Positions 10,513 through 63,497 of a DNA stretch of 64,000 nucleotides are shown here, piece by piece. The translations under genes and the position numbers were made by a program. Below the pieces are notes generated by a model. That model saw nothing but the letters and a program-made list of their open reading frames with translations. It made no database searches and was not told the origin of the DNA. Position 1 is the first letter of the stretch. Each line of letters opens with the position of its first letter. Origin of the DNA: Haloarcula halobia (lineage in GTDB: Archaea; Halobacteriota; Halobacteria; Halobacteriales; Haloarculaceae); NCBI RefSeq assembly GCF_029338255.1, contig NZ_CP119787.1:496001-560000 (forward strand). Reading direction: 5' to 3'.

Positions 10513-10546
10513 GCTCTATATTTCCAACGGGTGTTGTTAATTCTGT

Positions 10547-44587: not shown

Positions 44588-44656
44588 CCGGATTCCCCCC
44601 ACGAAGTCGGCCTGAAGGGCAAAGTCTAACAAGTCGGGGTCCGAACCTCGCAGGTG

Positions 44657-45046
44657 ATGCCAACCGTTGAGTACCTTAACTACGAAGTAGTGGACGACCA
44701 GGGCTGGGACCTGTACGCCGACGACCTCTTCGAGAAGGCCGGCGACGCCGGCCTCGACGCAGAGGACCACGGAACGATCGAGGTCAACGAGGGCGAGTAC
44801 ATCCTCGAGGCCGCGGAGGCACAGGGCTACGACTGGCCCTTCTCGTGTCGCGCCGGTGCCTGTGCGAACTGTGCCGCAATCGTCCTCGAGGGCGATATCG
44901 ACATGGACATGCAGCAGATCCTCTCCGACGAGGAGGTCGAAGAGAAGAACGTCCGCCTGACCTGCATCGGCAGCCCCGACGCCGACGAGGTCAAGATCGT
45001 CTACAACGCGAAGCACCTCGACTACCTGCAGAACCGCGTCATCTAA
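44657..45046 (+). CDS. fer: Halophilic plant-type 2Fe-2S ferredoxin
   Basis: A 129-aa electron carrier that serves pyruvate and 2-oxoglutarate oxidoreductases in haloarchaea. The cluster ligands are in [15 protein letters not shown] and in RLTCIG. The protein has the extra acidic N-terminal region ([20 protein letters not shown]) that is typical of halophilic ferredoxins. ATG 44657 is used, one codon after a GTG. It marks the right end of the GC-rich backbone; the AT-rich island begins just beyond. Confidence 0.95.
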
Positions 45047-45200
45047 AACAGTAGCGGGCCACACTGTGGTCACAAAGCACTGAGATACGGTCTACCATCG
45101 CAGGTAGTCCGCCCCAAATATGACGTTTTTAGCCGCTGCATCCCGGTGTAACACGTATTACGAGTGACTTCCATCAGATTATTCTAACGGAAGTGTGGGG

Positions 45201-45413
45201 TCACCCGTCTCGCACATCGCTTGGCCCATCCTCCATTCGCTGTATCTCCTCGTTCGCAAAGTAGAACAGCATCGCGCTCACCGCCACGACGATACCGCCG
45301 ACCGACTCCAGCACTGACACGACCTGATACTGGCCGAGCTGTAAATTCACCACAATCAGCACGTCCAACCACACGATGATGCCCCGTGTTATGTCAGTCT
45401 TGATGGGTTTCAA
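45201..45413 (-). CDS. Small membrane protein near a possible IS6-type end
   Basis: A 70-aa protein with two hydrophobic helices (TRGIIVWLDVLIVVNLQLG and ESVGGIVVAVSAMLFYFA) and a charged tail. It resembles small haloarchaeal membrane proteins but I know no function. The only start is TTG 45413, which lies inside the sequence GGGTTTCAACAGAGCC (45405-45420), the complement of GGCTCTGTTGAAACCC, a pattern I recall from haloarchaeal IS6-family termini. The gene may thus be truncated or rely on the IS end. Confidence 0.5.
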   Translation of the reverse strand: MKPIKTDITRGIIVWLDVLIVVNLQLGQYQVVSVLESVGGIVVAVSAMLFYFANEEIQRMEDGPSDVRDG

Positions 45414-45420
45414 CAGAGCC
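45405..45420 (-). repeat. IS6-like terminal sequence (right end)
   Basis: The complement reads GGCTCTGTTGAAACCC, matching the GGCTCTGTTGAAA starts that I recall for haloarchaeal IS6-family elements (ISH14/15 group). A second copy, GGCTCTGTTGAAATC, is at 48196-48210 facing the other way. No transposase lies between or beside them, so these would be remnants. Confidence 0.4.
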
Positions 45421-45467
45421 AGTTATTGGCATATGCGAGAACAAAGTACGTACTGAATTTCGGGATT

Positions 45468-46379
45468 CTAGCTGAATTGCGTGACGTATTGTTCGATTAT
45501 GGGGGTGGACTCGTGCGTGGCAACTTCGTTGCTATCGTATTCTTCTTTGACTTCTAACGGAACAGGTTCTGGGTCGCCACGACTGCCACCTTCTTGGAGT
45601 GTATTTCCAGTCGTAAGTCCAACAACATTTCCGTCTAAATCCACCAGTGGACTGCCACTGTTCCCAGAGACGTTAGGGACTGAGGAGAGTATCCCACCAC
45701 CATAACTTTCTTCTAGATATCGTCCGAGAGCAACTACCCATTCACCGACTGAAAATGGGTGACCGACTTGAACAACGGGTTGTCCCTTCGTGAGAGTGTC
45801 ACTATTTCCAAGGGAAAGTGTTGTTTGTGGTGAGAAATCAGTGTCAAGAACAGCCACATCGTGATAGGGCGAGTTATTGTGATCTGATTTACCAGTTAAA
45901 CTTGGTGAAAATTTTTCACCGTTTATTGTCCAGCATTCAAAACTGTCGCTGTCACCAACAACGTGACTGTTCGTTACAAGAGTATCGTCATCAATGAACC
46001 ACGCTGTCCCACCACCTCCGGTGCCGGCCTTTAATACTACAACAGCTTGTCGTACTGTCTCTCCGATGGAAAGTGCTTGGGAGCGGACTTCGTCTGAGAA
46101 ATCGGAATCTCTATTCGATTGGGATTCAAGTTCCTCAATTCGTTGTTCTTTTTCTTCAAGTTCTTGCTCTAATTCACGTATTCGTTCTTGCGATCTCTGG
46201 TCTGCGGGAGTTGAACTGGGAGTTCTCGTGGAAGTTGAACTGGGAGTTCTCGTGGAATTATTGGTTTCTCTTGAGGAGCCTGTTCCACCTCCTAGGTCAC
46301 TTGTGCAGCCTGCAAGGAGTCCTGAGGCGGCAACAGATGCTGAGAGGAGGAATTGTCGTCTTGAATTAGTATCGGACAT
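45468..46379 (-). CDS. Tat-exported trypsin-like serine protease lipoprotein
   Basis: A 303-aa protein with a twin-arginine signal (SRRQFLLSASVAASGLLAGC, lipobox LAGC), a Ser/Thr-rich linker, a short coiled coil (QERIRELEQELEEKEQRIEE) and an S1-type protease domain. The catalytic triad is His in TNSHVVG, Asp in HDVAVLDTD and Ser in GNSGSPLVDLDG. It is likely lipid-anchored outside the membrane, degrading misfolded or foreign proteins. Its lower GC marks it as the first large gene of the accessory island. Confidence 0.87.
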   Translation of the reverse strand: MSDTNSRRQFLLSASVAASGLLAGCTSDLGGGTGSSRETNNSTRTPSSTSTRTPSSTPADQRSQERIRELEQELEEKEQRIEELESQSNRDSDFSDEVRSQALSIGETVRQAVVVLKAGTGGGGTAWFIDDDTLVTNSHVVGDSDSFECWTINGEKFSPSLTGKSDHNNSPYHDVAVLDTDFSPQTTLSLGNSDTLTKGQPVVQVGHPFSVGEWVVALGRYLEESYGGGILSSVPNVSGNSGSPLVDLDGNVVGLTTGNTLQEGGSRGDPEPVPLEVKEEYDSNEVATHESTPIIEQYVTQFS

Positions 46380-46523
46380 TATACGTATGAGAGAAGTCTG
46401 TTATTTATATTCTCTTATGTGCAGTCCAATAGATCCAATTGACATCGCCGAGGCCGCTACCTCCTGCTATGTGTGGCCTTTATTGTTAGGTAAATCGTCA
46501 TTCGCTAGGACATACCAAAATAT

Positions 46524-47858
46524 TCACACAGAGTTCCCGGATACGTATACTGTGTCATTCAAGATGCGATCCATCTCTGATTGAGAAAGGCTTCCGTTCA
46601 TAAATACTGCCTCACACAGACTCTCTATCAGATCGTACGAACCACCAGAGAATTCAGCATTACTCAATCCTTCAATCAACCTCAGAAGCTCAACTCCGAG
46701 CCCATACTTGTTATAGCTTCCCCCGTCTACCTCTTGGCGACCGTTGTTGGTGTGGGATCTGCTCAAGAGACCCCGTTCGGTAAGGCTCCGCAGATGCTCT
46801 TGGATGTGACGTGTTGAATAATCGCATCCAAACATACTGCTCAATGCTCCCTGTACCTCTGACGTTCTAAGTGGTGTCTTCCCTTGGGCCGCTGCGCTGC
46901 CAATGATATACAGTATTCTGCAATGGTTGTCACCCAGATTCTGAATAGCAGTACTGACCCATGCAGGAACTATTTCTTTCTCCGCTTTCTCAACATCCTC
47001 CTCAGTGATTTCTCGCGGTTCTGAGTTCGACTGCTCTTCAGCTTCGATACGCATACGGGCGATATCGCCAGCGTGCGACAACAATTCCAGTCCATCACGA
47101 ACATCTCCACCCATTCGACTACACTTTGCTGCACTCAGTTCGATGATTTTCTTCGAGAGCACCCCGTCGCAGAATCCGATCTCTCCATGTTTCCTCAGTA
47201 TCTCTCGTAGTTCACTGGTGGTGAAAGAAGCAAATACGAGCTCCTTGAATTGCAGTGTTGATCGGGTAGCTGGCTTTAGTTCATCGAGAACATGGCCATC
47301 GTTTGCGATACCAATGATGCCGATATCCAGGTTGGAAAGACCAGCCCTCTCATGGATTCGGGACAGGTCATTGAAGAACTTGTCCGGCTCGCAGATGTCA
47401 TCAGCTTCATCAATAACAACGTACAGAACACCGGTTAGCCGAGCCAGTTGATTATCCAGTTCAGATTTCACTTTGTCATAGGAGTTGCCGGTCTTAGGGA
47501 GTTGCTCTTCGTCTTCGTCACCATATTTGGCTCGTAGCTCGTTAACGACCTTGATGAGCATCTGGTAGGATTTACTTCCCTGAGATGAGGTCACGCTCAC
47601 TGTGGACAATGTCCGATCTGCACCAGCTAGTTCCTTTTCAAGCAGATCAAGGACGTATTTTGTCGTAGATGTCTTTCCAGTTCCACGCTCACCGCTCACG
47701 AAGATATTCGGTGGAGAGCGATTTCTCAGTATTGGCTGGAGCAAGCGAATGTAGTTGTCAACAATCTCGTCACGCTCAACGAAGAGGTCTTCACGATATT
47801 CGTCACGAAAGGCCTCTTCGGAGCTGAAGATGGTGGATTCGGTTTTGAAACGCGACAT
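46524..47858 (-). CDS. Orc1/Cdc6 replication initiator
   Basis: A 444-aa AAA+ initiator. Walker A is FVSGERGTGKTSTTKYVLDL (near residue 56), Walker B VVIDEADDIC, sensor/Arg-finger region GIIGIANDGHVLDELKPAT, and a C-terminal winged-helix region (LRTSEVQGALSSMFG, HIQEHLRSLTERGLLSRS). It would bind origin boxes and load MCM. ATG 47858 is the start (MSRFKTESTIF). Just upstream, in the spacer, are inverted ORB-like repeats flanking an AT-rich stretch. The low-GC context suggests a plasmid or virus-derived initiator, now in an integrated element. Confidence 0.87.
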   Translation of the reverse strand: MSRFKTESTIFSSEEAFRDEYREDLFVERDEIVDNYIRLLQPILRNRSPPNIFVSGERGTGKTSTTKYVLDLLEKELAGADRTLSTVSVTSSQGSKSYQMLIKVVNELRAKYGDEDEEQLPKTGNSYDKVKSELDNQLARLTGVLYVVIDEADDICEPDKFFNDLSRIHERAGLSNLDIGIIGIANDGHVLDELKPATRSTLQFKELVFASFTTSELREILRKHGEIGFCDGVLSKKIIELSAAKCSRMGGDVRDGLELLSHAGDIARMRIEAEEQSNSEPREITEEDVEKAEKEIVPAWVSTAIQNLGDNHCRILYIIGSAAAQGKTPLRTSEVQGALSSMFGCDYSTRHIQEHLRSLTERGLLSRSHTNNGRQEVDGGSYNKYGLGVELLRLIEGLSNAEFSGGSYDLIESLCEAVFMNGSLSQSEMDRILNDTVYVSGNSV

Positions 47859-47931
47859 GGTGACTAAGCACATTTCTGACTTATAAGGGTTCGCCAAAGT
47901 TCGGTCAAACCGTCACTGGGATTGGCGGCAG

Positions 47932-48154
47932 ACACCCACACCAGATTTCCGGAGAAGTGTTCATCGAGAAGGGGTCGGCCACTCAACCACCACTACGCAC
48001 AGCACCCAGAGAGATACTGCATTTGTTCCCAGTACGGAATTGTTAACACTACCCACATATATAACTTACTCAAATAATATACAAATAATTCTATTCTTTC
48101 CCCCACCCCCATAGATGATTGGATAACTCCGGAAATTTGGTGTGTGGGTGTGGG
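47932..48154. promoter_or_regulatory. Origin-like region with inverted ORB-type repeats
   Basis: Two long, near-identical sequences face each other. One, at 47932-47954, reads on the minus strand CTCCGGAAATCTGGTGTGGG then TGT; the other, at 48127-48154, reads on the plus strand CTCCGGAAATTTGGTGTGTG then GGTGTGGG. Between them is an AT-rich stretch (about 48030-48100) with CATATATAAC and AATAATATAC, which would melt easily, followed by a C/G-run (CCCCCACCCCC). Inverted boxes around an AT-rich core next to an orc1/cdc6 gene are the normal make-up of a haloarchaeal origin. Confidence 0.7.
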
Positions 48155-48195
48155 ATGGTCGAATACGCCGGCGGTTTTACCATTTAGCAAAACAC

Positions 48196-48210
48196 GGCTC
48201 TGTTGAAATC
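48196..48210 (+). repeat. IS6-like terminal sequence (left end)
   Basis: GGCTCTGTTGAAATC, an inverted partner of the motif at 45405-45420, 2.8 kb apart and pointing outward. The flanking bases show no shared 8-bp target duplication, and no transposase follows in this window. Confidence 0.35.
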
Positions 48211-48351
48211 CTATTTTTCGGACATAATATAGCGTGCAACAGCCGGTCAGTGCGGGTGCGTATCACTCAGCTTTAGCTACAAGTACAGAGACATTTGAGA
48301 GATTTGTGCTAAACGACAATATCACTCCCCCCTCAAATTCAGTTATTTGCC

Positions 48352-48498
48352 ATGAACTGCACTCATTGTGGTCGTGAAACTCGAAAAAGCATTCGAATGT
48401 TTAGATTTGAACGCGCTGACAAAGAACTACAGCTTCGTCTCTGTGAGGACTGTATCGATGAGTTGCTGTCTGACGAAAACGTGGAGTTAGCACATTAG
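48352..48498 (+). CDS. Small zinc-finger protein (48 aa)
   Basis: A 48-aa protein: MNCTHCGRETRKSIRMFRFE then RADKELQLRLCEDCIDELLS. Two CxxC pairs (residues 3-6 and 31-34) form one zinc knuckle. Small single-zinc proteins of this kind are frequent in haloarchaeal plasmids and islands; they may bind DNA, RNA or protein. It lies to the right of the origin-like region and is preceded by an AT-rich stretch. Confidence 0.7.
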   Translation: MNCTHCGRETRKSIRMFRFERADKELQLRLCEDCIDELLSDENVELAH

Positions 48499-48639
48499 TA
48501 GTACGTGCACAGTCTGTATTGACCAAAGCTAGGCCAGACTGTGTCACCTGCTGAGGATTTCAGCAGAGTCCAAAACACGTTTTTCGTTTTGTCCTGTTGG
48601 AAAACAGAACCAACCTGAAATAATCCTCCCGAATGGGCT

Positions 48640-48945
48640 TCACCCGTCGAACATTATTCTCGCAAAAACCGGGCGATCGACGTTTTGCTTCAAGTAATCG
48701 GCTAAAGACTGTGGAATGGTGAGACTCGGTGAGACAATCTCTCTAATGTTCTCTCGGACAACAATAGTTTGCCTCTCGGTCAATTCTTGGGAGATCGTTA
48801 CCCAGCAGCAGTTCTTCCACGTCAAAATCCAGCACGAGGTATTGGTCATAGACTTTGATTTCGTCATCGTCCCTCCCGTAGAGCTCCCCGACCCCCTCGA
48901 ATGCGATTTCAGCTTCGATTCTGATACCAATCTCGAACAGTCTCT
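48640..48945 (-). other. Decayed or frameshifted coding remnant
   Basis: On the minus strand two overlapping frames look protein-like over different parts. One (about 48945-48760, no start codon) reads RDDDEIKVYDQYLVLDFDVE then ELLLGNDLPRIDRE; the other, covering 48640-48780, ends SLADYLKQNVDRPVFARIMF. Joining them needs a frame change near 48780. The remnant follows directly on the stop of the gene at 48909-49508, whose last codons it overlaps in the +1 frame. Confidence 0.35.
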
Positions 48946-49508
48946 ACTTGGCCATCTGAAAGTCGCTCAACGGGCGTTTTTCCAGCGCGCATATCTCGTT
49001 GACGCTGGTCTCCGATAGCGCGACGAATCCCATCTACAGGGACATCTGGGTGCTCAAAAGACCAGCTTTTCCCGAAATCTTTTATCACGAGTTGTGCTCT
49101 GTGTGGTTGGTATGATTGGTCGGTAATCTGGGCAACAAAGTAGTATGTCTGCTGGTCTATCGTCGTCTTGGCAAGGGAATAGGTTGTCTGATGGCCGATT
49201 GCGTTCGTTTTTGCTTCAACTAATGACTTGGAAGCCCCATTAGAGACGTGTTTTCCGATTGTCTCGGCTAATTTGGTTCGCTGGAGACTAGCAGAATCTT
49301 CTCGCTCCGTCTCGGTGGCTTGTGAGGTGCTTGGCTCGGGGTTCGATGCTGGAGCTTGCTGCTTGACTTCCACGGTTTCTGTTGGTGTCTGTTCGGGCTC
49401 GTCACGTTCTCGAAGGCTAGTTTTAAGCAATCCCTCGAAGGTCATCTCTGTCTCAGTACTGTACTTACCGTCGTTTTCATCGGCGCTATCGTTTGCGTAG
49501 TCAGTCAT
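48909..49508 (-). CDS. Hypothetical protein of the island (199 aa)
   Basis: A soluble 199-aa protein. The N-terminal 75 residues are low-complexity acidic/Glu/Thr/Ser; the C-terminal part is globular (TIGKHVSNGASKSLVEAKTN, TYYFVAQITDQSYQPHRAQL, KSWSFEHPDVPVDGIRRAIG) and may fold as an alpha/beta domain. I do not recognise the family. It runs on the same strand as 49519-50547, 10 bp downstream, likely co-transcribed. Confidence 0.7.
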   Translation of the reverse strand: MTDYANDSADENDGKYSTETEMTFEGLLKTSLRERDEPEQTPTETVEVKQQAPASNPEPSTSQATETEREDSASLQRTKLAETIGKHVSNGASKSLVEAKTNAIGHQTTYSLAKTTIDQQTYYFVAQITDQSYQPHRAQLVIKDFGKSWSFEHPDVPVDGIRRAIGDQRQRDMRAGKTPVERLSDGQVETVRDWYQNRS

Positions 49509-49518
49509 AGATGAGTGT

Positions 49519-50547
49519 CTATTTGAGAGTGAGTTCTTGGAAGACGTCTGGGCGGCGGGTTTGCGCCATTGCTCGGATGTTATCCGCGGTGGTCACTGAA
49601 GTGATGATTGGGCTTTGAAGCGATGGAACCGACCCTGATGGAGCATCGAAAACCCGTTCGAGTCGCTCCATTGCATTTGTGGTGCTGAGATCTGGAGCAT
49701 CCCATCCGGGATGTCCGTCGGGTAACTCGATCGATCCATCTCGGACGAACGTAGAGAGCAATCTGTTGACGTCTTGTTTTCGGTATACGACCCAATCGCT
49801 GTCCCCTGGGAGAATTGCATGTAGACGCGCATCGTCAGTAATGTGTGATCGGTTATTTGGCCGCATTTCGACCTCACACGTTGCAGCGACTGTTCCATCA
49901 TCACCGTAGGCGACAATATCGTACACTTTGTCGTCCAGTTCCGGGGATACATCGGCGACATCGGCGGCCCTAATGTACGTTTTTACACGCTTGCCTGCTC
50001 CCGTATACGCGTGTTCGGTGAGACGAACTATGTATCGATGGGCAATGCCTTCGTTCGCATCAGATCTGAGGCTAGTGGATTTCTCATCGAAACCTCGTAC
50101 GGCCTGCATGTCCAGATATTCCTTTGCAGTGGGCCCCAAATCCCACAAGGTTCGTCGAGCGATTTTGCGTCGGGGAATCTTGTCCGATCCATTATACACT
50201 GTGGGGGGTTCTATTACGTCCAGTGCCTCTGCTCGTTCTAACGTTGTTGGTGATAGAAGTTGATTGATTTCACTGTGTCCCTGAGCTAGGTCAATAGTAG
50301 TGGTCGTGTTCTCTACTGTTGTGCAACCGCGCGCGAAGTGATCTGCGATACATTCAGCAAGAAGACAAATATTAATTGCTTCATCTGTTGTCTCTGTTTT
50401 TTCTGCGAGGGCATTGAGTAACCGTGCAAATCCATCGAAGTCTTGATGACTATCTCGCCAAAGATGGGGCTGACGGTCTTCTGTCGTTGTAATCGTAGAA
50501 AGTTCATTTGGTCGCTCGGGGGATGATGGTTTGGATGGGGTATTCAT
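49519..50547 (-). CDS. Island protein with possible nuclease-like domain (342 aa)
   Basis: A 342-aa soluble protein. Residues about 110-150 (PPTVYNGSDKIPRRKIARRT) may be a winged-helix-like segment. The central part, GIAHRYIVRLTEHAYTGAGK ... ELDDKVYDIVAYGDDGTVAA TCEVEM, has Asp followed by Glu-x-Glu on adjacent strands, the layout of a PD-(D/E)XK or related nuclease core; no Lys follows, so the similarity is weak. No known name. It forms a leftward gene pair with 48909-49508. Confidence 0.65.
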   Translation of the reverse strand: MNTPSKPSSPERPNELSTITTTEDRQPHLWRDSHQDFDGFARLLNALAEKTETTDEAINICLLAECIADHFARGCTTVENTTTTIDLAQGHSEINQLLSPTTLERAEALDVIEPPTVYNGSDKIPRRKIARRTLWDLGPTAKEYLDMQAVRGFDEKSTSLRSDANEGIAHRYIVRLTEHAYTGAGKRVKTYIRAADVADVSPELDDKVYDIVAYGDDGTVAATCEVEMRPNNRSHITDDARLHAILPGDSDWVVYRKQDVNRLLSTFVRDGSIELPDGHPGWDAPDLSTTNAMERLERVFDAPSGSVPSLQSPIITSVTTADNIRAMAQTRRPDVFQELTLK

Positions 50548-50964
50548 TGATATCTATTCAATATAATTTGTCTGAAAATAAAACACTTATCTATGCGTAC
50601 CAGTTGATCATTTTCACTCGATTATTTTCGCCTCTCAATTTTTCAGTACTGTATTCTGCTTTCGAACGGGTTAGAGCCAAATTGACGGGAAAAAACTCGC
50701 TTTTCAGTGTACCAAGAATAGTGGAGTATAGGGAGTAAAAAGAGATTGAATAGCTATCAGTTACTGTTGTTGCTGGCGAATGGCTATCGTCCTTCGGAGT
50801 CGAAATTGTAGACAGAAATTTTGTTGACAATGTCTGAGTTCCGTTCGATAATGGCTTTCCAGTTGTCCAAGCAGATACTATATGATATAGAGAGATTCGG
50901 AAAGGAAGAGATTATGCAGTCTTCCTTCACAGTGTGAATAGTTGTTGCAATACCTCGTTCTGAC
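50548..50964. other. AT-rich intergenic region
   Basis: About 420 bp between two leftward genes. AT-rich with only short frames that read as shadow ORFs. It probably holds the promoter of the 49519-50547 gene. I see no repeat or RNA gene. Confidence 0.4.
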
Positions 50965-51717
50965 TCATGGAGGGCCACGAACTGGTGAGACTCGTTCGAT
51001 CTTACCTTGTTGGACATCCTTGAGGAATTCATCGATATCCCAACCGGCACGTTTGGGAAGTGTCTGCTGGCCGTTTTCGAGGTGCCAACTTACGTACATC
51101 TGTCCACGACCGGGCTTTCGGTAGATTGTCACCCGATTGCCCTCGATCTTGAAATCGCCATGGTTGAAACAGTTGACATATCGATTATAGGTCGGGATAT
51201 ACAGTTCATGACGGCCAAGCCATGGTGTTGGTGGTGAGAATTCGTCCCAGCGAACCGGAGTCCCCAGAGAGAGTTCTCCGTCCGCAAGTGAGGCAACACC
51301 CAGTGATGGTTCTGAGGTAGTAAATTCTTCCAAAATATTCTCAGTTTCTCGCCGTTCTTCGTGAGCATCCACAGTGAATATCCAGCAAACGGAATAGCCA
51401 AATCGGAGATGGCCTATGGTAGCTCGCAGCCGATCTTTGTTTGATGCGGCAGTCTCGACTTCAATGACAAATCGCTGCGGCATATGGGATGGAGACTCGG
51501 AGAGTTGACAACGGATATCTCCAATCAAATCTGACGTTTTCTTCTCTGTTTCTATCGTACCTATGTAATCCGGGTCGGAGCGAAGTCGATCACAAATTGC
51601 TGCTTTGACAGCCCAGTGTTGCTCAGACTCGTTTTGCTGTTGAACCGACGAGTCCAAGGTTATCGCTGGGTGGACTGTAAAAGTGCGTGTCACATATGAA
51701 GAGTCGTTGTGACCCAT
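50965..51717 (-). CDS. Putative PD-(D/E)XK nuclease-like protein
   Basis: A 250-aa soluble protein. EQHWAVKAAICDRLRSDPDY is a helix like that preceding a nuclease core, followed by KTSDLIGDIRCQL and RFVIEVETAASNKDRLRATI. The D...E-V-E-T pattern with Lys/Arg in the next helix fits a PD-(D/E)XK active site, as in CoiA-like or restriction-type families. The C-terminal region (RKPGRGQMYVSWHLENGQQ) is a beta domain. Neighbouring genes at 49519 and 52851 are also nuclease-like, suggesting a defence role. Confidence 0.65.
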   Translation of the reverse strand: MGHNDSSYVTRTFTVHPAITLDSSVQQQNESEQHWAVKAAICDRLRSDPDYIGTIETEKKTSDLIGDIRCQLSESPSHMPQRFVIEVETAASNKDRLRATIGHLRFGYSVCWIFTVDAHEERRETENILEEFTTSEPSLGVASLADGELSLGTPVRWDEFSPPTPWLGRHELYIPTYNRYVNCFNHGDFKIEGNRVTIYRKPGRGQMYVSWHLENGQQTLPKRAGWDIDEFLKDVQQGKIERVSPVRGPP

Positions 51718-51797
51718 AATAACTAGACCTCAAATAAAATAGAGCCCTGTCATATTTAGGCCGTCATATAGAAAACACTCTGGGGCGACCTACAGAT

Positions 51798-51929
51798 ATG
51801 GTGGCATCTGACTCTGACGAACGAGCGATTAGAGATCCCGTGATGTGCCAGTATTGCGAACAGACTGCTGGTCAGCAATACCTCGAAACGCTCCTCAATA
51901 GCGACGACGCCAGCACTGTGGATGACTGA
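51798..51929 (+). CDS. Tiny CxxC protein (43 aa)
   Basis: A 43-aa frame, MVASDSDERAIRDPVMCQYC then EQTAGQQYLETLLNSDDAST. One CxxC pair is present and, if real, it would need dimerisation to bind zinc. TATA-like AT-rich sequence (CATATTTAG) lies about 43 nt upstream. It is the only sensible frame in the 51718-52079 gap, which is otherwise featureless. Confidence 0.4.
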   Translation: MVASDSDERAIRDPVMCQYCEQTAGQQYLETLLNSDDASTVDD

Positions 51930-52079
51930 ATTTACTCCGACTGCCAGTCCCAAGCATGATCTCGACCCGTCGGAAGGGTGTCTTCTCGGTTCTAATCAGG
52001 GGATTAGGATATTGTTAACCAGTTATATTCTAGATTTAGACCAATCGTATACATACATGCTGATAGACTAGCAATCCAC

Positions 52080-52409
52080 GTGACAACTTCCCCGACTTCT
52101 GCTGAACAAACGATGCTGGAGATTATCGCGTACCATGACCCCATTGACTACCATCGACTTCGTCGGCTAGTCGGAGAGAGATTGAACGGCCAATACAGCA
52201 CGGAACGTCACCGAGAAGCCTTGGAGAATCTGAAGGAATTGGACATGGTCATCAAGCCCGGCATGTCGCATGAATACCTTCATATCACGGATATTGGCTG
52301 GAGTCATTTGGGCGGAGACACTCCCCGGCACGCGGACAACATCGAAACTCAAGAGGCTCCTGTGTGCCCAGTGTGCGCGACAGATGATCTGGTCGAAACC
52401 GATTGGTAA
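52080..52409 (+). CDS. Winged-helix-like protein (109 aa)
   Basis: A 109-aa protein from GTG 52080. The region TMLEIIAYHDPIDYHRLRRL ... RHREALENLKELDMVIKPGM ... EYLHITDIGWSHLGGD is a wHTH domain of the type seen in haloarchaeal plasmid and virus regulators, and CPVCATDD at the end is half of a zinc site. Probably a DNA-binding repressor. Confidence 0.7.
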   Translation: MTTSPTSAEQTMLEIIAYHDPIDYHRLRRLVGERLNGQYSTERHREALENLKELDMVIKPGMSHEYLHITDIGWSHLGGDTPRHADNIETQEAPVCPVCATDDLVETDW

Positions 52410-52468
52410 GAGAGCTGGTCTTCGCTTTTATACTAGCAGCTGGCGCAGACTCGTTGTAGAGAGAACTG

Positions 52469-52837
52469 ATGAGTCTGCTTCAGAAACTGAAAGATACTGT
52501 ATCGCAACCAACCAACAGGCCGGTCAATACATCGATTACCCCGGACGATGCCTACAAAGCTGTCAGTAATGAACGCAGACGTCGTGTTCTCGGATTTCTC
52601 TCAGAGCACGATGTCGGCGAGACAGTTTCTGTATCTGATCTTGCCGACCGGTTATCCAACGGAGAAAACCGTACAGCCTGCTACGTTGCCCTAATCCAGA
52701 GCCATATGATTGTCCTATCGACAAAAGACGGTATTGGGGCTGTAGACTACGATACACAGGCGAAAACTGTGACTGTGCGTCCGGAGGTGTTTGTGCTGCA
52801 CCAAGCAGCCAAGGCGTTCGAAACCGAACTCAACTAA
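52469..52837 (+). CDS. DUF7344-type winged-helix regulator (122 aa)
   Basis: A 122-aa protein with the pattern DDAYKAVSNERRRRVLGFLS and SVSDLADRLSN, a wHTH seen in the haloarchaeal DUF7344-type domain family. The C-terminal half is less conserved. It starts MSLLQKLKDTVSQPTN and is tail to tail with the large restriction-modification gene (14 bp between stops). Confidence 0.75.
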   Translation: MSLLQKLKDTVSQPTNRPVNTSITPDDAYKAVSNERRRRVLGFLSEHDVGETVSVSDLADRLSNGENRTACYVALIQSHMIVLSTKDGIGAVDYDTQAKTVTVRPEVFVLHQAAKAFETELN

Positions 52838-52850
52838 ACGTGCTTTCTCG

Positions 52851-55800
52851 TCACCAGTTCAGTAACGTTCCCTCATGCGGTGGGGTATTCGACTCAAGAA
52901 CTTGTCGTTCCTCGTCGTTGAGCTTGTAGAGATCATAAACAGCGTCGTTGAGTTCCGAATATGCATCCAGAATCTGCTGTCGGTCTGAAGGCCCACAACT
53001 TTGGATTTGCTTCGTGCATTCCTCAATCGTTTCTATGAGATGCTCGTCATCCTGGGGAGGGGCCGGAAGACGTCCGAAATAGATCGGTGTCAAATCCATC
53101 GAACGGATCGCTCGATTGTAGATTCTCGTGTACGCATACCAAGCAAACAAGCTGGAATTCATCAGCCCACAAAGCAGTTCGACAGAGTGATTTTTGGGGA
53201 TTGCATGAATGGAGGTGTCTGGAATAGTCGCCCCATCATAATCTACGGCACACTGAATGACAATTCGGTCAGTCGGGTCGGTTATGTGTGCGAGAATACG
53301 CTGGAATACAACCTTTTCTTTGCCTTTCCCAGCTAAGTGGAAGTTCGAGCGTTTCTTGATATCCGAGTCAAGATAACTCTCACTCACGAATCGGAACTGG
53401 CCAATGTCGTCACCTCGATATGCCAGCAAATCGCTCGGGTCGCCCGTGAGGTACGATTTGAAGGCATCTATTCCCTTTGTTGCCTCTGCAAACTCGACAT
53501 CATCGAATGTATCGTACTCGCTGAGTTTTTTGAGAATATCCTCGTTCTCCTCGTCAACCCACATATAGAATCCATCTTCATCGAAGGCAGACTGCTGGTA
53601 CCCTTGCTCGAAGAACTCAGTGTTACTGCCGTTATCGTTGCGCCGACCGACGACAATATCATCATCTACGTCGGTGGACGAGAACATCAGAATGATTTGC
53701 TCTTGTTTGACACCGTCGAACGCTTCGCGGAGGTCAATCAGGTAGTCGAGGTCTGTTTCCAAGAGATGGTTGCGAGCGTCGGCCCACCGGTACGCGTACG
53801 TGAGTGCCTTCGGAACAACGAATGAGACTTGTCCACCACTGCGGGTGAGGTGTTCAGATCGTGAGGCGAACACCATGGATGAGTGGTTCTCGTCCGGGTA
53901 GTTACCCAGTGCAGATTCGGCCTCTGAAATATCGATGCCATATGGTGGGTTTCCAATGGCTACGTCGAACCCACCATCTTGGAACACTTCATAGAACTCC
54001 AGTGGCCAGTGAAGGTACTCCACGTCTTCTAAGTCCTCTTCGGTCAAATACCGGAAGATTTCGAATTCTTCGATATTCCCCTCAACCCTATCGAGTATCT
54101 GTTGAAGACGGCCCTCGGGGGTGCGGATGACGTACTTGTTGCTGAGCGTCATCGAGACGTAGCCATCTTTCCCCTTGTTGATTCGAAGGCCCTTCGCATC
54201 ACGGAACTCGTCGTCAAGTTCCTCTTTCCGACTATCACTTAATGCGTCCTCAAATTCTATCGAGATTTTTTCGATGGCTTTTCCCGGCAGATCCGGCGCT
54301 TCAACGGTATCCATCTCATGCTCGAACGACACATCAGCATTCCGTAGGTCATCAAGGAGTTTCTCGTTCAGTGTGGAGTTATATTCCGTATCCAGCTCTT
54401 GGATTTCGTCCTCGATGTCGTGTGCGTCCTCACCATACAGTTGTTTGTACTCGTTCACCAGCTCTTGTCGTTCCTCAACGAGTTCCTCAACAGACTTCTC
54501 TGTCCATTCGCTAAGTGGGGACTGCTGATGCTCGTCATTCTCATCCTCAATTTGCAAACGTTGGGTGTCAGTGTACCCAATCAATGAGTTCCCCTCCCGA
54601 ATGTTGAACGCCACGTTGGGTAGCGCGAGTTCACCCGGGTCTAAATCATCGAGATCGGTCTCAGAGAGATCAGCCATGATTGAAAGCCAAAGGCGTAATT
54701 TAGTGATCTCGACACCTGGCCCGACAATATCAACACCGTACAGGTTCGCAAGCACCGTTCGTTTCTTTAGAGTATGGTTAGCTGGGGAGTCACTGTGCTT
54801 CTCGTACAGAGAGCGACGAATCGCTACAATTTCATTCAGTACAGACGTCAAAAAGTGTCCACTCCCACATGCAGGGTCAAGAACACGGAAATCATCCACA
54901 GTTGCGATTAGAGAGTCAATCTGGTCTTCATTGGGTGACAGTGCATCGACCAGTTCGTGGATATCGTCATATCGAGCTATTTCGCCTTCGCGCCAACCCC
55001 AATCCTGTTGCAGCGTCTGTTTAAATTCAGTCAACAACCCCTCTTTTACCGACCTGTCTGCGGTATATCGGGTGATATTGTCTGGAGTGTAGTACGCCCC
55101 GAGATCCTTCTGAGCACCAGTTTCTCCGGCCAGATAATTTATTGTTTTCTCAAAAACTGTCCCGAGCACACTCGGATCAAGCTCGTCGGGCCCACCAGTA
55201 GTTGAGAACTCATAATCCTCCAGCAAATCAATAATATTGAGCAGGACAGCGTCCGAAACAGTGAATTTCTCTTCGTCCTCAATGTTAGCTCGGAATAAAC
55301 CACCGTTCAGATACGGGATATCTCGATACGTGGAACGCTCTTGGATTTTGTCGGGTCGCTTTCCTTTGGGTTTATTGAAAACGTCATACACTAACGGTTG
55401 AATAAATGTGGAATAGAAGTCACCAAGATGCTCGCCGTCTTCGTGTGCTTGTTTCACCTCATTCAACAGAGCATCATCAACAACACCAGTGTCCTCAAGG
55501 AATTTGATGAAAACCAGGCGGTTCATTAATTGAACAGAGAATAGTCTCCGTTCCTCTTCGCCCGCGCTTGCTGGTGAATCAAGCCCATCTGCTACGAGGC
55601 ATCTGTCGGTGTCGCGTCCGTCGCTGTCTTCATCGGTGATTCCGAAGACAATCTCAATATATCCGTCATAGAAAGACTCAGTGATCTCCTTCTTTTTCCG
55701 GCGGATTATCGACTGAACACCAGATGCGATGTTGGTGAAATTGTCAAAATAGAACGTACGATAGAACTCTTCAAGCGTTTGAAGGTGTTCCTCAGAAAGG

Positions 55801-56423
55801 ACATCCTCAGCGTCCGATTTATTCGTTGCCTGGTCTTCAAATAGCGCGATAAATACGGGAGTGAGGTCTATACTACTGATTTTATTAATCGTGTGCGTGT
55901 CGGGGTCTTTTTTCAGGAGAATCCACCGCAGACCGTCCGTCACCATGCCGAAGTCACTCTCGAATGGTTCGTGATGGAGCCATCCCTTCACTTGACCAAT
56001 CCCGTGTTTTTGTTGGTCGAGGCGCTTGTTGATGGGTTCTGCTTCGATCAGAAGCTGGGTGGAGTCTATGTTTGGGTAGTCGTCAAGCGGAACGCTGTAG
56101 TCTACCCATTGGTCTTCATCTTCTGCTGGGGTATTGACTTCCTGATGTGCGTACGGGAAGTTGAGCTCCTCGAACAGCTGTTCGATAATGACATTTTTTG
56201 TGAACTCCTCTGGGGCCTGGCCTTTCTGATCGTGGGCCGAGGTGAGGAGAGTCCCATTTTTGAGTATATCTTTCAGGTCGTCGCCATCGATGCGTTGGCG
56301 TAGTTTAGCGACAATGTCCTGGATTTTGTTTCCGAGCTGGAGGGGTATATCGTCGGGGACAGATGTTTGGAGGTCTTGGAGCGTGAATTCTGTCGGTGTA
56401 GATCGAGACCGCCGAGAACTCAT
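52851..56423 (-). CDS. Type IIG (Eco57I-like) restriction-modification enzyme
   Basis: A single-chain restriction endonuclease and N6-adenine methyltransferase, 1190 aa. An N-terminal nuclease-like region holds STQLLIEAEPINKRLDQQKH (about residues 125-145, Glu-x-Glu pattern). SAM motif I DPACGSGHFLTSVLNEIVAI is near residue 517; catalytic motif IV DVAIGNPPYGIDIS near residue 825; a target-recognition region follows (about 940-1120). The long central helices are Asp/Glu-rich. It would modify and cut foreign DNA at one site, so host methylation is expected. A small coiled-coil gene lies directly upstream. Confidence 0.88.
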   Translation of the reverse strand: MSSRRSRSTPTEFTLQDLQTSVPDDIPLQLGNKIQDIVAKLRQRIDGDDLKDILKNGTLLTSAHDQKGQAPEEFTKNVIIEQLFEELNFPYAHQEVNTPAEDEDQWVDYSVPLDDYPNIDSTQLLIEAEPINKRLDQQKHGIGQVKGWLHHEPFESDFGMVTDGLRWILLKKDPDTHTINKISSIDLTPVFIALFEDQATNKSDAEDVLSEEHLQTLEEFYRTFYFDNFTNIASGVQSIIRRKKKEITESFYDGYIEIVFGITDEDSDGRDTDRCLVADGLDSPASAGEEERRLFSVQLMNRLVFIKFLEDTGVVDDALLNEVKQAHEDGEHLGDFYSTFIQPLVYDVFNKPKGKRPDKIQERSTYRDIPYLNGGLFRANIEDEEKFTVSDAVLLNIIDLLEDYEFSTTGGPDELDPSVLGTVFEKTINYLAGETGAQKDLGAYYTPDNITRYTADRSVKEGLLTEFKQTLQQDWGWREGEIARYDDIHELVDALSPNEDQIDSLIATVDDFRVLDPACGSGHFLTSVLNEIVAIRRSLYEKHSDSPANHTLKKRTVLANLYGVDIVGPGVEITKLRLWLSIMADLSETDLDDLDPGELALPNVAFNIREGNSLIGYTDTQRLQIEDENDEHQQSPLSEWTEKSVEELVEERQELVNEYKQLYGEDAHDIEDEIQELDTEYNSTLNEKLLDDLRNADVSFEHEMDTVEAPDLPGKAIEKISIEFEDALSDSRKEELDDEFRDAKGLRINKGKDGYVSMTLSNKYVIRTPEGRLQQILDRVEGNIEEFEIFRYLTEEDLEDVEYLHWPLEFYEVFQDGGFDVAIGNPPYGIDISEAESALGNYPDENHSSMVFASRSEHLTRSGGQVSFVVPKALTYAYRWADARNHLLETDLDYLIDLREAFDGVKQEQIILMFSSTDVDDDIVVGRRNDNGSNTEFFEQGYQQSAFDEDGFYMWVDEENEDILKKLSEYDTFDDVEFAEATKGIDAFKSYLTGDPSDLLAYRGDDIGQFRFVSESYLDSDIKKRSNFHLAGKGKEKVVFQRILAHITDPTDRIVIQCAVDYDGATIPDTSIHAIPKNHSVELLCGLMNSSLFAWYAYTRIYNRAIRSMDLTPIYFGRLPAPPQDDEHLIETIEECTKQIQSCGPSDRQQILDAYSELNDAVYDLYKLNDEERQVLESNTPPHEGTLLNW

Positions 56424-56466
56424 GATACTTTACAATCTAATTATGATGTCTTCATACTTTCCCTGT

Positions 56467-56748
56467 CTATGTGTTGTGTTCCTCTTTCAGTTCTTGTATG
56501 TCTGCTTGGATGTCGTCAAGGACTTCGTGCATCTTCTCCTGCTGTGAACCCTCGCAAATCTTCTCTCGTAGTTGGTCAGCAATTCCTGGTTCGTGTTCGT
56601 CGAGTAGTGAGAGGTCTTCTTCGATTCGCTCCAGTCGTTTGCGGACGCGTGCTCGGGTATTGGCTTGGTATTTTTTCGGGTGTTCTACGTCTTCTGCTTC
56701 GCCGGCTATGATTTCTCGTTCGCGGTCAGTCAGTAGTGCTCGTGACAT
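56467..56748 (-). CDS. Small coiled-coil protein upstream of the RM gene (93 aa)
   Basis: A 93-aa helical protein, MSRALLTDREREIIAGEAED ... YQANTRARVRKRLERIEEDL ... QADIQELKEEHNT. It has a common haloarchaeal start (LTDREREIIAGE) and a coiled coil that resembles small regulatory or accessory proteins. It is 43 bp upstream of the RM gene on the same strand, so it is presumably co-transcribed; it may act as a control or assembly partner. Confidence 0.7.
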   Translation of the reverse strand: MSRALLTDREREIIAGEAEDVEHPKKYQANTRARVRKRLERIEEDLSLLDEHEPGIADQLREKICEGSQQEKMHEVLDDIQADIQELKEEHNT

Positions 56749-56863
56749 TTTGCGTGTTATTGTGTATGCATCGCGCCCATTTAAAATACACGAGTAGGTG
56801 AGTATACTATATCGGCATTTGCATTACCATTTTATACCTCTGGTGTTTACTATCACATACTAT

Positions 56864-57019
56864 ATGAATAACTCAAACAAACAAAATCCTGAAATTACCG
56901 TTTCAGAATCTGACGACTGCATCCACATTGACTACACAGACGACCGTCCAACCCTCGAAGAATCTCTCCAAGGAACGGATATCCGGGTTGCTGGCGACAC
57001 CACGCGGGGTGACGAATAA
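56864..57019 (+). CDS. Hypothetical small acidic protein (51 aa)
   Basis: A 51-aa protein: MNNSNKQNPEITVSESDDCI ... RPTLEESLQGTDIRVAGDTT. The TTTATA box at 56831-56836 is about 28 nt before the ATG, pointing to a leaderless start of a rightward operon. Its stop TAA overlaps the next ATG by one base. No domain recognised; acidic and probably soluble. Confidence 0.6.
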   Translation: MNNSNKQNPEITVSESDDCIHIDYTDDRPTLEESLQGTDIRVAGDTTRGDE

Positions 57020-57435
57020 TGTCACGCTGGGATTCTCTCATCCCACTCACAGACACGTGGGAACTTCAAACGAAAACGGCAGAAAAGCGTGTGTACGAAC
57101 ACGCTGAACGCGTTGCTCGCATCGAGCTGATGATGGACGATGACCTGGTAACGCAAGCAAGTCTCTACGGGCGACGCGACGGGGAATGGTCACAGTCCGC
57201 GCATATTCCGAGCCGGGAATACGTCAATGCGGAATCGGACGACCACAAAAACGAGCTCGTGATTCACCTCGGACACTCGCTATCCAATAGTATCAGCGAT
57301 TACCCACTTAGAGAGTCTGAAACACCCGAGAACACCGACGGAAAGGACGTTGGAGTCGTCGAATCTGACGATGCAGTGGTTATCGACAACACAGAATCCA
57401 CGCAAGCAACGCTTGACGAGATCCTGGCGGACTAG
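57019..57435 (+). CDS. Hypothetical protein (138 aa)
   Basis: A 138-aa protein starting MSRWDSLIPLTDTWELQTKT. It is soluble, helical at the start and acidic towards the end; the tail TESTQATLDEILAD resembles the tail region (PTLEESL) of the preceding 51-aa protein. No family recognised. Second gene of the small-protein operon. Confidence 0.65.
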   Translation: MSRWDSLIPLTDTWELQTKTAEKRVYEHAERVARIELMMDDDLVTQASLYGRRDGEWSQSAHIPSREYVNAESDDHKNELVIHLGHSLSNSISDYPLRESETPENTDGKDVGVVESDDAVVIDNTESTQATLDEILAD

Positions 57436-57456
57436 CCGACAGATTGCGGTACAGTA

Positions 57457-57498
57457 GCCCTCCTGGCGGTGACGTGGGGTTCGATTCCTCATAAGGGC
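57457..57498 (+). other. tRNA-like T-arm fragment
   Basis: The T-arm TGGGG-TTCGATT-CCTCA (57475-57491) has a consensus T-loop and five paired bases. GCCCT (57457-57461) and AGGGC (57494-57498) can pair as a 5-bp acceptor stem, leaving only 13 nt before the T-stem, too short for D and anticodon arms. Just downstream GGCGAAGCG and CGCTTCGTC (57503-57527) form a 9-bp hairpin. It is not a functional tRNA; it may be a leftover of a tRNA gene or an attachment site. Confidence 0.4.
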
Positions 57499-57630
57499 AT
57501 ACGGCGAAGCGTGTCCCCGCTTCGTCACCCTCCCTCCAATATGAGTAGAACACTAGAGCGTGTCATAGACCTCTTCACATACTATAGTCAGTTTGAATAC
57601 TATTATAGCGGGTTATTAGATTAGAACTAC

Positions 57631-57645
57631 GTGCACTAAGTGCAC
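57631..57645. promoter_or_regulatory. Perfect RHH operator candidate
   Basis: GTGCACTAAGTGCAC is a 7-bp arm palindrome with a single central A. It lies downstream of the RHH stop, inside the element, and next to AT-rich sequence with TTATTAGATTAG on its left. A near-copy sits at 57885-57899 upstream of the RHH gene. Confidence 0.6.
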
Positions 57646-57660
57646 ACAGTTCAAAATTAG

Positions 57661-57861
57661 TTAGAGAGTACCCTTTCGTTTCCGAATAATGATTTCTCGT
57701 ACCCGTTTAACGTGATTCGTCTCGGATTGAACGAACGCTGTGAGGATGGCTTCGACGATCTCGGAGCGGCTGGCTCCGAGATCGTCACACTCAGCGACCA
57801 GTTCATCCACTTCTCGCACGATTTCCTCGTCAACAGCGACGCCGAACTTATCTTTCGCCAT
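57661..57861 (-). CDS. Ribbon-helix-helix regulator within the mobile element
   Basis: A 66-aa MetJ/Arc/CopG-type regulator: MAKDKFGVAVDEEIVREVDE (beta strand, helix A) and DDLGASRSEIVEAILTAFVQ (turn, helix B), then a basic tail NHVKRVREIIIRKRKGTL for DNA contact. RHH proteins bind as dimers to palindromes. The palindrome at 57885-57899 lies between its AT-rich promoter (AATAATATC on this strand) and its ATG, fitting autorepression. A perfect 14-bp inverted repeat with 5-nt loop (57754-57786) is part of the coding sequence for the turn between the helices. It is the sole gene of the 405-bp element. Confidence 0.85.
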   Translation of the reverse strand: MAKDKFGVAVDEEIVREVDELVAECDDLGASRSEIVEAILTAFVQSETNHVKRVREIIIRKRKGTL

Positions 57862-57884
57862 AGCTAAAACAAGCTGAGAACAGC

Positions 57885-57899
57885 GTGCACCAAGTGTAC
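57885..57899. promoter_or_regulatory. Imperfect RHH operator candidate over the RHH start region
   Basis: GTGCACCAAGTGTAC matches the palindrome at 57631-57645 in 13 of 15 positions. It falls between the promoter-like AT-rich run (57903-57912) and the RHH start 57861, where a repressor would block initiation. Confidence 0.6.
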
Positions 57900-58135
57900 G
57901 GCGATATTATTTCGTTAGAGCCGACTCAGCAAGCTATGAGAACTATTCTATGACACGCTCCACTAAACAACAAAACAGAACAGAACCTGAATAGACTACG
58001 CAGAACCGGCTTCTGTGCCGCCTGCAACAAATACAAACACGACTGCAAGCAACGTGTCGAAATTCGCGAAACACGCTGGCTTTGCAGCAATTGTGACCAA
58101 ACCACCATCGGCGACTTCCTCAAAGGAGACGACCG

Positions 58136-58483
58136 ATGACGGTCGTTACCATCGAATCCTACAGCGACCTCGAGTCCTGCTATGAAATCAGCAGCAAGGG
58201 AGCGGACGCGATTGCAGAGTTGATGTCGGAAGGCATCGAAACCATCGTGTTCGTCCCGGGCTGGATGGCCGACGGCACTTCCCTAGAATCGATTGCTGGT
58301 GGGAAGACGTTGTTCGTCGCGGAAGTGGAAGATTACAGCTCGAAATCGTGGCTGGTGACTCAGCCAGACGGTCAGTCTGAATTTCTTGCTAAAAGCCAAG
58401 TCGTGGTTTTCGAAAGTGCGTCCGAGACTATCGACTCTCCACAGACGGGACTCGACAAATTCGCTAAAGGTGAGTCTCGATGA
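58136..58483 (+). CDS. Hypothetical protein (115 aa)
   Basis: A 115-aa soluble protein, MTVVTIESYSDLESCYEISS ... ELMSEGIETIVFVPGWMADG ... GKTLFVAEVEDYSSKSWLVT. An alpha/beta pattern is visible but no family is recognised. It overlaps by 4 bp both the (split) zinc-finger gene before and the zinc gene after, so it belongs to the same translationally coupled operon. Confidence 0.7.
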   Translation: MTVVTIESYSDLESCYEISSKGADAIAELMSEGIETIVFVPGWMADGTSLESIAGGKTLFVAEVEDYSSKSWLVTQPDGQSEFLAKSQVVVFESASETIDSPQTGLDKFAKGESR

Positions 58484-58713
58484 GTCGAGGAACAGTCAGC
58501 GACCACACGTGTGAACGGTGTGAGTCGCTCACCCTCCAACGGCCATACCGTGGCTTCGTCGAATATTGATGCTCCGACTGCCATCACAGCGAAAAGGACT
58601 GGCGTAGTGCGACGTTCCCTAGCCCTCTGGGGTCTCTGTTGCTGCTTCCGTTCTGGGTGCTTTCCGTCGTCTCCAGGGTTATTCTCGACTCCTTCGCAGG
58701 TGATTCTCGATGA
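58480..58713 (+). pseudogene. Zinc-knuckle membrane gene with in-frame TGA
   Basis: The frame starts MSRGTVSDHTCERCESLTLQ, reaches TGA at codon 30 (58567-58569), and continues in the same frame, CSDCHHSEKDWRSATFPSPL ... LLPFWVLSVVSRVILDSFAG, to TGA at 58711-58713, which overlaps the next gene's ATG. CxxC pairs on both sides of the stop (CERC, CSDC) would form one zinc site, and the second half has a hydrophobic helix. A typical sequence would have Trp (TGG) at that codon, so TGG to TGA is the simplest explanation. Recoding is not excluded. Confidence 0.75.
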
Positions 58714-58952
58714 GTGATATTTTGTCCATCGCCGTAGGGGTCGCTGCTGGTGTCATTTTCGCCACAGTGGTCTTTCCACTGCTGCTGATCGGCGGTTTGT
58801 ACCTCTTTGTTGAAACGACGGAGCGTGTCGTGGCTTGGTGGCATCGCAACAGCACGATGGTCTACGAGATCGACTCCGTGACCGGCACTGTAGATACCTA
58901 TCGGGGTTCAGATGAAGCGCTTGAAGACCTCGAGGTGACCAACGATGAGTAG
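58710..58952 (+). CDS. Small membrane protein of the operon (80 aa)
   Basis: An 80-aa protein with one long hydrophobic stretch (AVGVAAGVIFATVVFPLLLI then GGLYLFVETTERVV, maybe two helices) and an acidic, soluble tail EIDSVTGTVDTYRGSDEALE. No family recognised. Its ATG overlaps the TGA of the preceding gene by 4 bp and its 3' end overlaps the next start by 8 bp. Confidence 0.7.
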   Translation: MSDILSIAVGVAAGVIFATVVFPLLLIGGLYLFVETTERVVAWWHRNSTMVYEIDSVTGTVDTYRGSDEALEDLEVTNDE

Positions 58953-59247
58953 TGTCCCTCGCAGTGTGCGGATGGAGTCGGAACTGGCCGACCGTTCGAC
59001 TCTGTTCAACGCTGGTCAACGGAAGGCAGTGAGGCAGGCTATCAACTACTGTTCTGTCGTCTCCCCACAAATTGCTGACTTAGAATCGCTCCTCCAGAAA
59101 GTCGAGAAGGGACAGGTACTGACGAAGAAGGATCGACGTCGATTGCAAGACGTACTGAACAAACACGGCAAGCAACACCTCGACACCAACGAACGCCGAT
59201 TGAATTCATGGGCCAAATCGGAACTGTGGAACGCAAACCGCCCATAG
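58945..59247 (+). CDS. Hypothetical protein, last of the small-gene operon (100 aa)
   Basis: A 100-aa soluble helical protein: MSSVPRSVRMESELADRSTL ... YCSVVSPQIADLESLLQKVE ... LTKKDRRRLQDVLNKHGKQH. Basic in the middle, which is unusual for a halophile and might signal nucleic-acid binding. No family recognised. Confidence 0.65.
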   Translation: MSSVPRSVRMESELADRSTLFNAGQRKAVRQAINYCSVVSPQIADLESLLQKVEKGQVLTKKDRRRLQDVLNKHGKQHLDTNERRLNSWAKSELWNANRP

Positions 59248-59372
59248 CTCACAACCAGTTTATAAGCGTATTAACCATACACAGTAGAAGACTCACAATA
59301 GCCAAATATATGCCATTCAACTAGCTAGGACATCCCTACTACTAAATAGATACAATCGAATAAACATCTAAC

Positions 59373-61627: not shown

Positions 61628-61724
61628 ACAACTAACGCTTCTTCTCCTGTAGTTTTCCAACGTTCACTACAGACTGGTAGAGACAGAACGGCTTTAATAC
61701 CGACATAGGTGACTATGAACAAGA

Positions 61725-62117
61725 ATGAACCTCGTGAGCGTAATTACTGAGGCAATAACCGGTCTGGTTGTTCTTCTGGTTTCTGTTCAGGCTGGGTATT
61801 CGACACACGAGACAATCCACTACCGCGCCACTCGCCGATGGACAAACACGCAGAGATTAAAATTCAGGTTCATAACACCGACGTTCACGAACTTCGACCC
61901 CAGCAAGGTTCCGAATAAGGGTATTCAACTATCAGCCATCGCACCGACACTCCTCTTCGTACCTGTGCTTATTTTTCTCCTCATCACAGTCGGTCTACCA
62001 CCACTCCTCAATATGGAACTTCAGGACTATGCTCACCTCGGATTCTTCCTCACATTGACTCTCGCAGCTTGGCCAAGCCGAGGCGATATCCGCGCATTGA
62101 TCAATCCAGAACAGTAG
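61725..62117 (+). CDS. Small membrane protein (130 aa)
   Basis: A 130-aa protein with three hydrophobic segments (AITGLVVLLVSVQAGYS, LLFVPVLIFLLITVGLPPLL, LGFFLTLTLAAWPS). The HETIHYRATRRW stretch after the first helix is reminiscent of small membrane metalloprotease-like proteins (DUF3267-type), but the match is weak. TTTAATA at 61693-61699 is about 29 nt before ATG 61725, so the start is leaderless. It lies next to the integrase (convergent, 3 bp apart). Confidence 0.65.
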   Translation: MNLVSVITEAITGLVVLLVSVQAGYSTHETIHYRATRRWTNTQRLKFRFITPTFTNFDPSKVPNKGIQLSAIAPTLLFVPVLIFLLITVGLPPLLNMELQDYAHLGFFLTLTLAAWPSRGDIRALINPEQ

Positions 62118-62120
62118 CCG

Positions 62121-62720: not shown

Positions 62721-62965
62721 TAGAGGGTCACCCTTCGGAGGTTCCCGACTCGGCAGTGCGGGCAGTTGTCGTGTTGGCCGCGAACGCCACGGTTGCAATG
62801 TCGGCAGGTCTGGTATGTCCATTTGTATGTTGTATCTACAAGGAACACTCCCGTTGCGACTGCTGCTATAGTCTCCATCGAGAATACGGGGCTCGATAGA
62901 TTGTACCACGCAGCAGCTGTGAGGCCGAGTAGTGCTCCGGTCAGGAATCTGTGTTTCATTTTCAT
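62720..62965 (-). CDS. Small membrane protein with zinc ribbon, coupled to the integrase (81 aa)
   Basis: An 81-aa protein: MKMKHRFLTGALLGLTAAAW and a second hydrophobic segment (METIAAVATGVFLVDTTY), followed by CRHCNRGVRGQHDNCPHCRV, a two-CxxC zinc ribbon. Its stop codon overlaps the integrase ATG. A longer start 13 codons upstream is possible. Membrane-anchored zinc ribbons of this type are common in haloarchaeal mobile elements. Confidence 0.65.
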   Translation of the reverse strand: MKMKHRFLTGALLGLTAAAWYNLSSPVFSMETIAAVATGVFLVDTTYKWTYQTCRHCNRGVRGQHDNCPHCRVGNLRRVTL

Positions 62966-63491: not shown

Positions 63492-63497
63492 TCCCTC

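Follow-up and report, generated by a model that had tools for sequence, protein, structure and literature searches.

A probable orc1/cdc6 origin module on an integrative element at the 3' end of a ferredoxin gene in Haloarcula halobia

The multiple replication origins of archaeal chromosomes are usually explained by the capture of extrachromosomal elements. The locus analysed here raises the question of whether such a capture can be recognized while the ends of the captured element are still intact, and whether that element could replicate on its own. PMC3528665 and PMC4441112 describe haloarchaeal origins made of an orc gene and ORB repeats, how they arrive with foreign DNA and how they are associated with integrases, and according to the former 42 of 102 predicted origins have integrases or transposases nearby (Wu et al. 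2012). We analysed a stretch of 64,000 nucleotides, called here the window (C1:496001-560000), from the two-contig, 3.48-Mb genome of Haloarcula halobia. In our reading, to which we give a probability of about 0.75, a complete orc1/cdc6 origin module is carried there by a 26.2-kb element that a tyrosine recombinase inserted at the 3' end of a ferredoxin gene.

The orc1/cdc6 frame is intact (Table 1). Its product exceeds the TIGR02928 cut-off of 181 bits with a score of 230, contains the Pfam domains AAA_22 and Cdc6_lid, and aligns with PDB 2qby_A over residues 8-374 (E 1e-28), extending past the AAA+ part, and with PDB 2v1u_A over residues 7-367. The protein, well over 300 aa, is thus predicted to have both the AAA+ and the C-terminal winged-helix parts of an initiator. 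A mechanically called open reading frame begins at a TTG (47897), but the TATA-like CTTATAAG lies 22-29 nt before the ATG at 47858, which favours the ATG as the start codon.

Directly upstream of this gene lies a 26-nt inverted repeat whose arms are complementary at 22 of 26 positions. The initial annotation had placed such a repeat at 47932-47954 and 48127-48154, around an AT-rich core of about 170 bp beside the orc gene, and had recognized in it the haloarchaeal origin pattern. The repeat is real and lies close to these places, and the 172 nt between the arms have a GC content of 41.9%, falling to 27.7% at 48040-48104, as compared to 48.5% for the island and 69% for its flanks. Each arm carries a G-rich end (GTGTGGGTGTCTG and GTGTGTGGGTGTG) facing outward from the AT-rich core, as in the other orc-linked pairs of this genome. 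At the level of sequence, the pattern of an orc gene with cognate outward-facing inverted ORBs and an AT-rich core is therefore present. Dinucleotide shuffles of the adjacent 496-bp intergenic stretch never reached 22/26 (0 of 300, largest 21), nor did those of a 1,050-bp stretch (0 of 150, largest 20). The 16-nt core CTCCGGAAATYTGGTG occurs without mismatch at exactly two sites in the genome, which are the two ORB arms; elsewhere, among the matches listed, there are 23 sites with 3 mismatches and none with 1 or 2. Within the window, two matches at 3 mismatches are unremarkable (22 of 100 shuffles), so that the strength of this evidence comes from the exactness of both matches.

Table 1. Features of the ferredoxin-site element and of its putative origin module (positions in the window).
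Feature	Position	Strand	Basis or remark
2Fe-2S ferredoxin gene, 130 aa, chromosomal	44654..45046	+	Pfam Fer2 2e-16
attL, 13-bp AGAACCGCGTCAT, 3' end of ferredoxin gene	45030..45042	+	exact repeat; single copy at the empty site of G023
Element, part inside the window	45043..64000		GC 48.5% vs 69%; runs on to C1:567265
orc1/cdc6 initiator gene, 444 aa	46524..47858	-	TIGR02928, Pfam, PDB alignment
TATA-like CTTATAAG	47880..47887	-	upstream of orc ATG; kept in G053 (upstream alignment)
Proximal ORB CTCCGGAAATCTGGTGTGGGTGTCTG	47929..47954	-	inverted repeat, genome-wide core search, G053 alignment, 32-region comparison
Spacer, 172 nt	47955..48126		most AT-rich part 48040-48104, putative unwinding element
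Distal ORB CTCCGGAAATTTGGTGTGTGGGTGTG	48127..48152	+	same four bases of evidence as proximal ORB
250-aa protein, no family assigned	50965..51717	-	homologs in G053 and G397
Two small backbone genes, 109 and 122 aa (second DUF7344)	52080..52837	+	colinear with G421 element
Second, smaller tyrosine-recombinase-like gene	62121..62909	-	not at insertion repeat

Among 392 genomes of the order, the nearest homolog of this Orc, with 39% identity, was found in a genome of another genus (G053). The region upstream of the G053 gene contains the motif in inverted orientation at L062:7597-7612 (minus strand) and 7791-7806 (plus strand), with 2 mismatches each and 178 nt between the 16-nt cores as against 172 here, whereas none of 2,000 shuffles of that region yielded an inverted pair at 3 mismatches. 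When the two upstream regions are aligned, both arms and the TATA-like element fall in register. We then compared 32 upstream regions: our own, that of G053, those of the 28 next Orcs fetched (30-34% identity, BLAST) and those of two plasmid paralogs from the same genome. Two of them, our own and that of G053, contain an inverted core pair in which neither arm has more than 2 mismatches, and L154 has one at 4 mismatches per arm. Inverted pairs scoring at least 16/20 are found in 28 of the 32 regions, mostly with other cores, the regions below this value being L151, L159, L160 and L019, which is G053 itself; the ORB pair of G053 is not its best ungapped 20-nt inverted repeat, and the region scores 14/20 by this ungapped measure. 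The comparison indicates that the layout is general and that the core tracks the Orc, so that the ORB core appears to be specific to the adjacent initiator.

Searches with the Orc protein gave no confirmed relative in collections of genome contigs and viral contigs and no match in phages, and its best plasmid match has 32% identity. Three viral contigs contain the ORB core, each with a single match and no pair, which we took as chance. In G053, the orc/ORB module is part of a low-GC island ending at a tRNA-Arg gene (L062, that is G053:C32, 11714-13637), and a weak integrase-like gene beside it shows only a SAM-like domain (E 0.0012). Since a search for another copy of the tRNA at the far end of the island found none, and since the domain match is weak, this island is only likely to be an integrated element.

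The island in H. halobia is better delimited. Its insertion site is the 3' end of the ferredoxin gene, which remains intact and is present in all 32 genomes searched within the genus. The low-GC region begins just past this gene, and a second copy of AGAACCGCGTCAT, corresponding to attR, lies outside the window at C1:567253-567265, 26,223 bp from attL; it is the only exact word of at least 13 nt common to the two boundary regions compared. In the congener G023, both flanks join at one copy of AGAACCGCGTCAT, as expected of an empty site. The element is absent from all 12 congeners fetched, in which the right-hand flank begins no more than about 125 bp (10 genomes) or about 1.1 kb (2 genomes) after the ferredoxin gene. 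The initial annotation, which spoke of an island with an integrase, is supported as regards a foreign island, but the integrase adjoining the repeat lies beyond the window, at C1:565566-566615, about 640 bp from attR, and is distinct from the smaller recombinase gene inside it (62121-62909). It is a 350-aa tyrosine recombinase (Phage_integrase 1e-20), and its companion gene has a weak likeness to the mobilisation protein NikA. Direct repeats, an adjoining integrase and an empty site together mark the island as a bounded integrative element of the tyrosine-recombinase type, and their identification strengthens the reading of the island as an integrated element. When a 17-kb stretch of the element was compared with plasmids, no record covered 80% of it, absence from a collection being weak evidence; the matches are short (about 2% coverage or less) and fall mostly on a small ribbon-helix-helix gene. 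The plasmid and phage comparisons revealed no free replicon, plasmid or virus, that has this Orc.

Homologs of the 350-aa integrase (45-71% identity) were found in 17 other genomes of the order, a patchy distribution of 18 in 392 with the present genome included. Thirteen of these have the ferredoxin gene on the integrase contig, on the opposite strand and about 9-44 kb away; the distance is 105 kb in G181, and the gene is on another contig in the remaining three. All 17 have a copy of the insertion repeat beyond the integrase, exact in 16 and with one mismatch in G086, and the companion gene is clustered in 15 of the 18 genomes. Orc was absent from the 13 joined elements by tblastn (E 1e-8), and among the matches listed for the 18 genomes all Orc family matches lie outside them. 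This absence derives mainly from tblastn; Pfam was applied to 150 of the 190 sister-element proteins of at least 150 aa lying within one stretch (8 more span two), the unscanned ones being mainly integrases, companions, ferredoxin-side frames and the near-duplicate element of G233, one protein of which was scanned, so that the sister elements may hold other replication genes. As none of the 13 joined elements has an Orc, replication from an orc origin does not characterise the family as a whole and may be specific to this member.

Among the Pfam families listed (25 of 58 and 25 of 70), the sister elements are rich in restriction-modification genes. In the window, the N- and C-terminal halves of GmrSD are encoded in two frames (59373-60455 and 60674-61627), which represent either a GmrSD-type restriction gene that is split or frameshifted, or an error in the sequence. 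The two smallest ferredoxin-site elements (10.8 and 11.4 kb) have in common a 446-475-aa protein with 48% identity and no Pfam match (L118:8992-10329 and L119:8008-9432), which is a candidate for a so far undescribed protein of replication or mobilisation.

Colinearity between our element and that of G421 extends across the two small genes at 52080-52837 (60% and 66% identity), those at 57019-57435 and 58136-58483, the second recombinase, and the integrase with its companion. The segment from attL to 52080 holds Orc and its ORBs here, whereas in G421 it codes for a protein of 842 aa that contains the domains D5_N and DUF5906; in G304, a D5_N protein is encoded in the middle of the element, and D5_N was found inside the element in 2 of the 13 joined ones. 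D5-like proteins are replication helicases. From this one colinear pair, Orc and its ORBs look like an exchangeable replication module. The second recombinase matches Pfam Phage_integrase below the cut-off (3e-4) and a PHROG integrase at 3e-9, and recurs in the elements of G421 (77%) and G304 (68%). The 250-aa protein encoded at 50965-51717 has homologs near the orc gene of G053 (38%) and downstream of the ferredoxin gene of G397 (36%). We tentatively propose, at somewhat less than even odds, that the ferredoxin-gene elements form one family of integrative replicons in which a constant integrase module is combined with swapped replication modules, Orc/ORB here and D5-like in G421 and G304, and whose insertion can deliver a ready-made second origin near oriC1.

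Elsewhere in the genome, outward-facing inverted pairs also adjoin the orc gene at C1:432 kb and the orc genes of contig C2; the orc gene at C1:635 kb has none among 5 of its 13 repeat pairs. The pair at C1:432 kb, which from its motif we take to be of oriC1 type, lies about 112 kb from the ORB module of the element. In about ten genomes compared by eye, the ferredoxin site is located about 27-140 kb from an orc gene with a partial family match (108 kb in the present genome). This gene is probably that of oriC1, and the distances suggest that ferredoxin-site elements tend to sit near oriC1. The first 20 kb of C2 (129 kb) are repeated at a distance of about 75.6 kb, with 99.4-99.8% identity and numerous small gaps (L013:1-20000 compared with L014 and L015), so that this contig probably represents a circular plasmid of about 75 kb whose assembly ran on beyond its starting point. 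Its orc gene is read in two frames at 10443-11610 and has an intact copy at 86035; if C2 was assembled in this way, the split gene would be a sequencing artefact.

Judging from the module and the ends, autonomous replication after excision is plausible. The integrase would drive excision at the 13-bp repeats; Orc would bind the outward-facing ORBs, the AT-rich spacer would melt and the host MCM helicase would be loaded there, and the excised circle would replicate from the ORB origin until reintegration. While integrated, the origin may be dormant, or the module may fire as an extra chromosomal origin close to oriC1.

Among the alternatives, a dormant or relic origin, complete in structure but no longer firing, on an element that has ceased to replicate itself, seems to us somewhat unlikely. 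Precedents exist in Haloarcula hispanica, where oriC4 and oriC5 are reported in PMC3528665 as structurally complete and without replication activity, and the sister elements manage without Orc. Nevertheless, no decay is seen in the present module, since the Orc frame and domains are intact and the ORBs are intact and mutually matched, and the integrase frame and the repeats are also preserved. Less likely again is a fixed element whose module does no more than provide a second origin near oriC1, with no autonomous phase. The distance to the oriC1-type pair would suit it, and PMC3528665 and PMC4441112 document that variable regions of haloarchaeal chromosomes can contain foreign origins; the intact 13-bp repeats and integrase, the presence in 18 of 392 genomes and the absence from congeners speak instead for a mobile element.

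The inverted pair might also serve as an operator for Orc autoregulation, since the TATA-like element of orc is immediately preceded by the proximal arm. We regard this as improbable as a substitute for an origin: the distal arm lies 198 nt further upstream with AT-rich DNA between, in the haloarchaeal origin layout, and autoregulation and origin function can coexist. Short inverted repeats are common, and the window contains another 26-nt inverted pair (81%, 46376-46401 and 46528-46553), but a chance repeat beside an orc gene is hardly credible given the shuffles (0 of 300), the genome-unique core and its conservation in the nearest homolog. The reading of a complete origin module on an inserted element remains the one we prefer.

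With the haloarchaeal origins set out in PMC3528665, this module shares G-rich ORBs inverted around an AT-rich stretch, an intergenic position beside orc, an ORB sequence tied to the Orc family and a location in acquired DNA. It differs from the origins as presented there in that its host element is fully bounded by repeats, with integrase and empty site, and its Orc has 39% identity to the nearest homolog found, whereas that paper required an identity of at least 80% within its families. Haloquadratum walsbyi has a genomic island 3 (DV11) that also bears integrase and Cdc6 genes, and its authors propose excision, recircularisation and replication by way of Cdc6; DV11 uses a tRNA gene, in contrast to the ferredoxin gene used here (PMC3119063). 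Like the present element, virus BJ1 has a tyrosine recombinase and a protein-coding target, in its case the HMG-CoA reductase gene (PMC8371274). A ferredoxin gene was not found named as an archaeal insertion site in our search of literature listings, though it may still be published, and the word "ferredoxin" is absent from the main text of the review PMC8371274. The element is a candidate origin capture with its ends intact, and a sister element carries another replication module in the matching segment. Origin capture thereby becomes directly testable through excision, replication of the circle and firing while integrated.

Finally, a terminal-repeat-like sequence, GGCTCTGTTGAAATCC, occurs in three copies (45405-45420, 48196-48211 and 48555-48570, with 0-2 mismatches), whereas none of 100 shuffles gave three. 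The last two copies delimit a 375-bp unit (48196-48570) beside the distal ORB, MITE-like in appearance, which contains a 48-aa zinc-ribbon-like frame.
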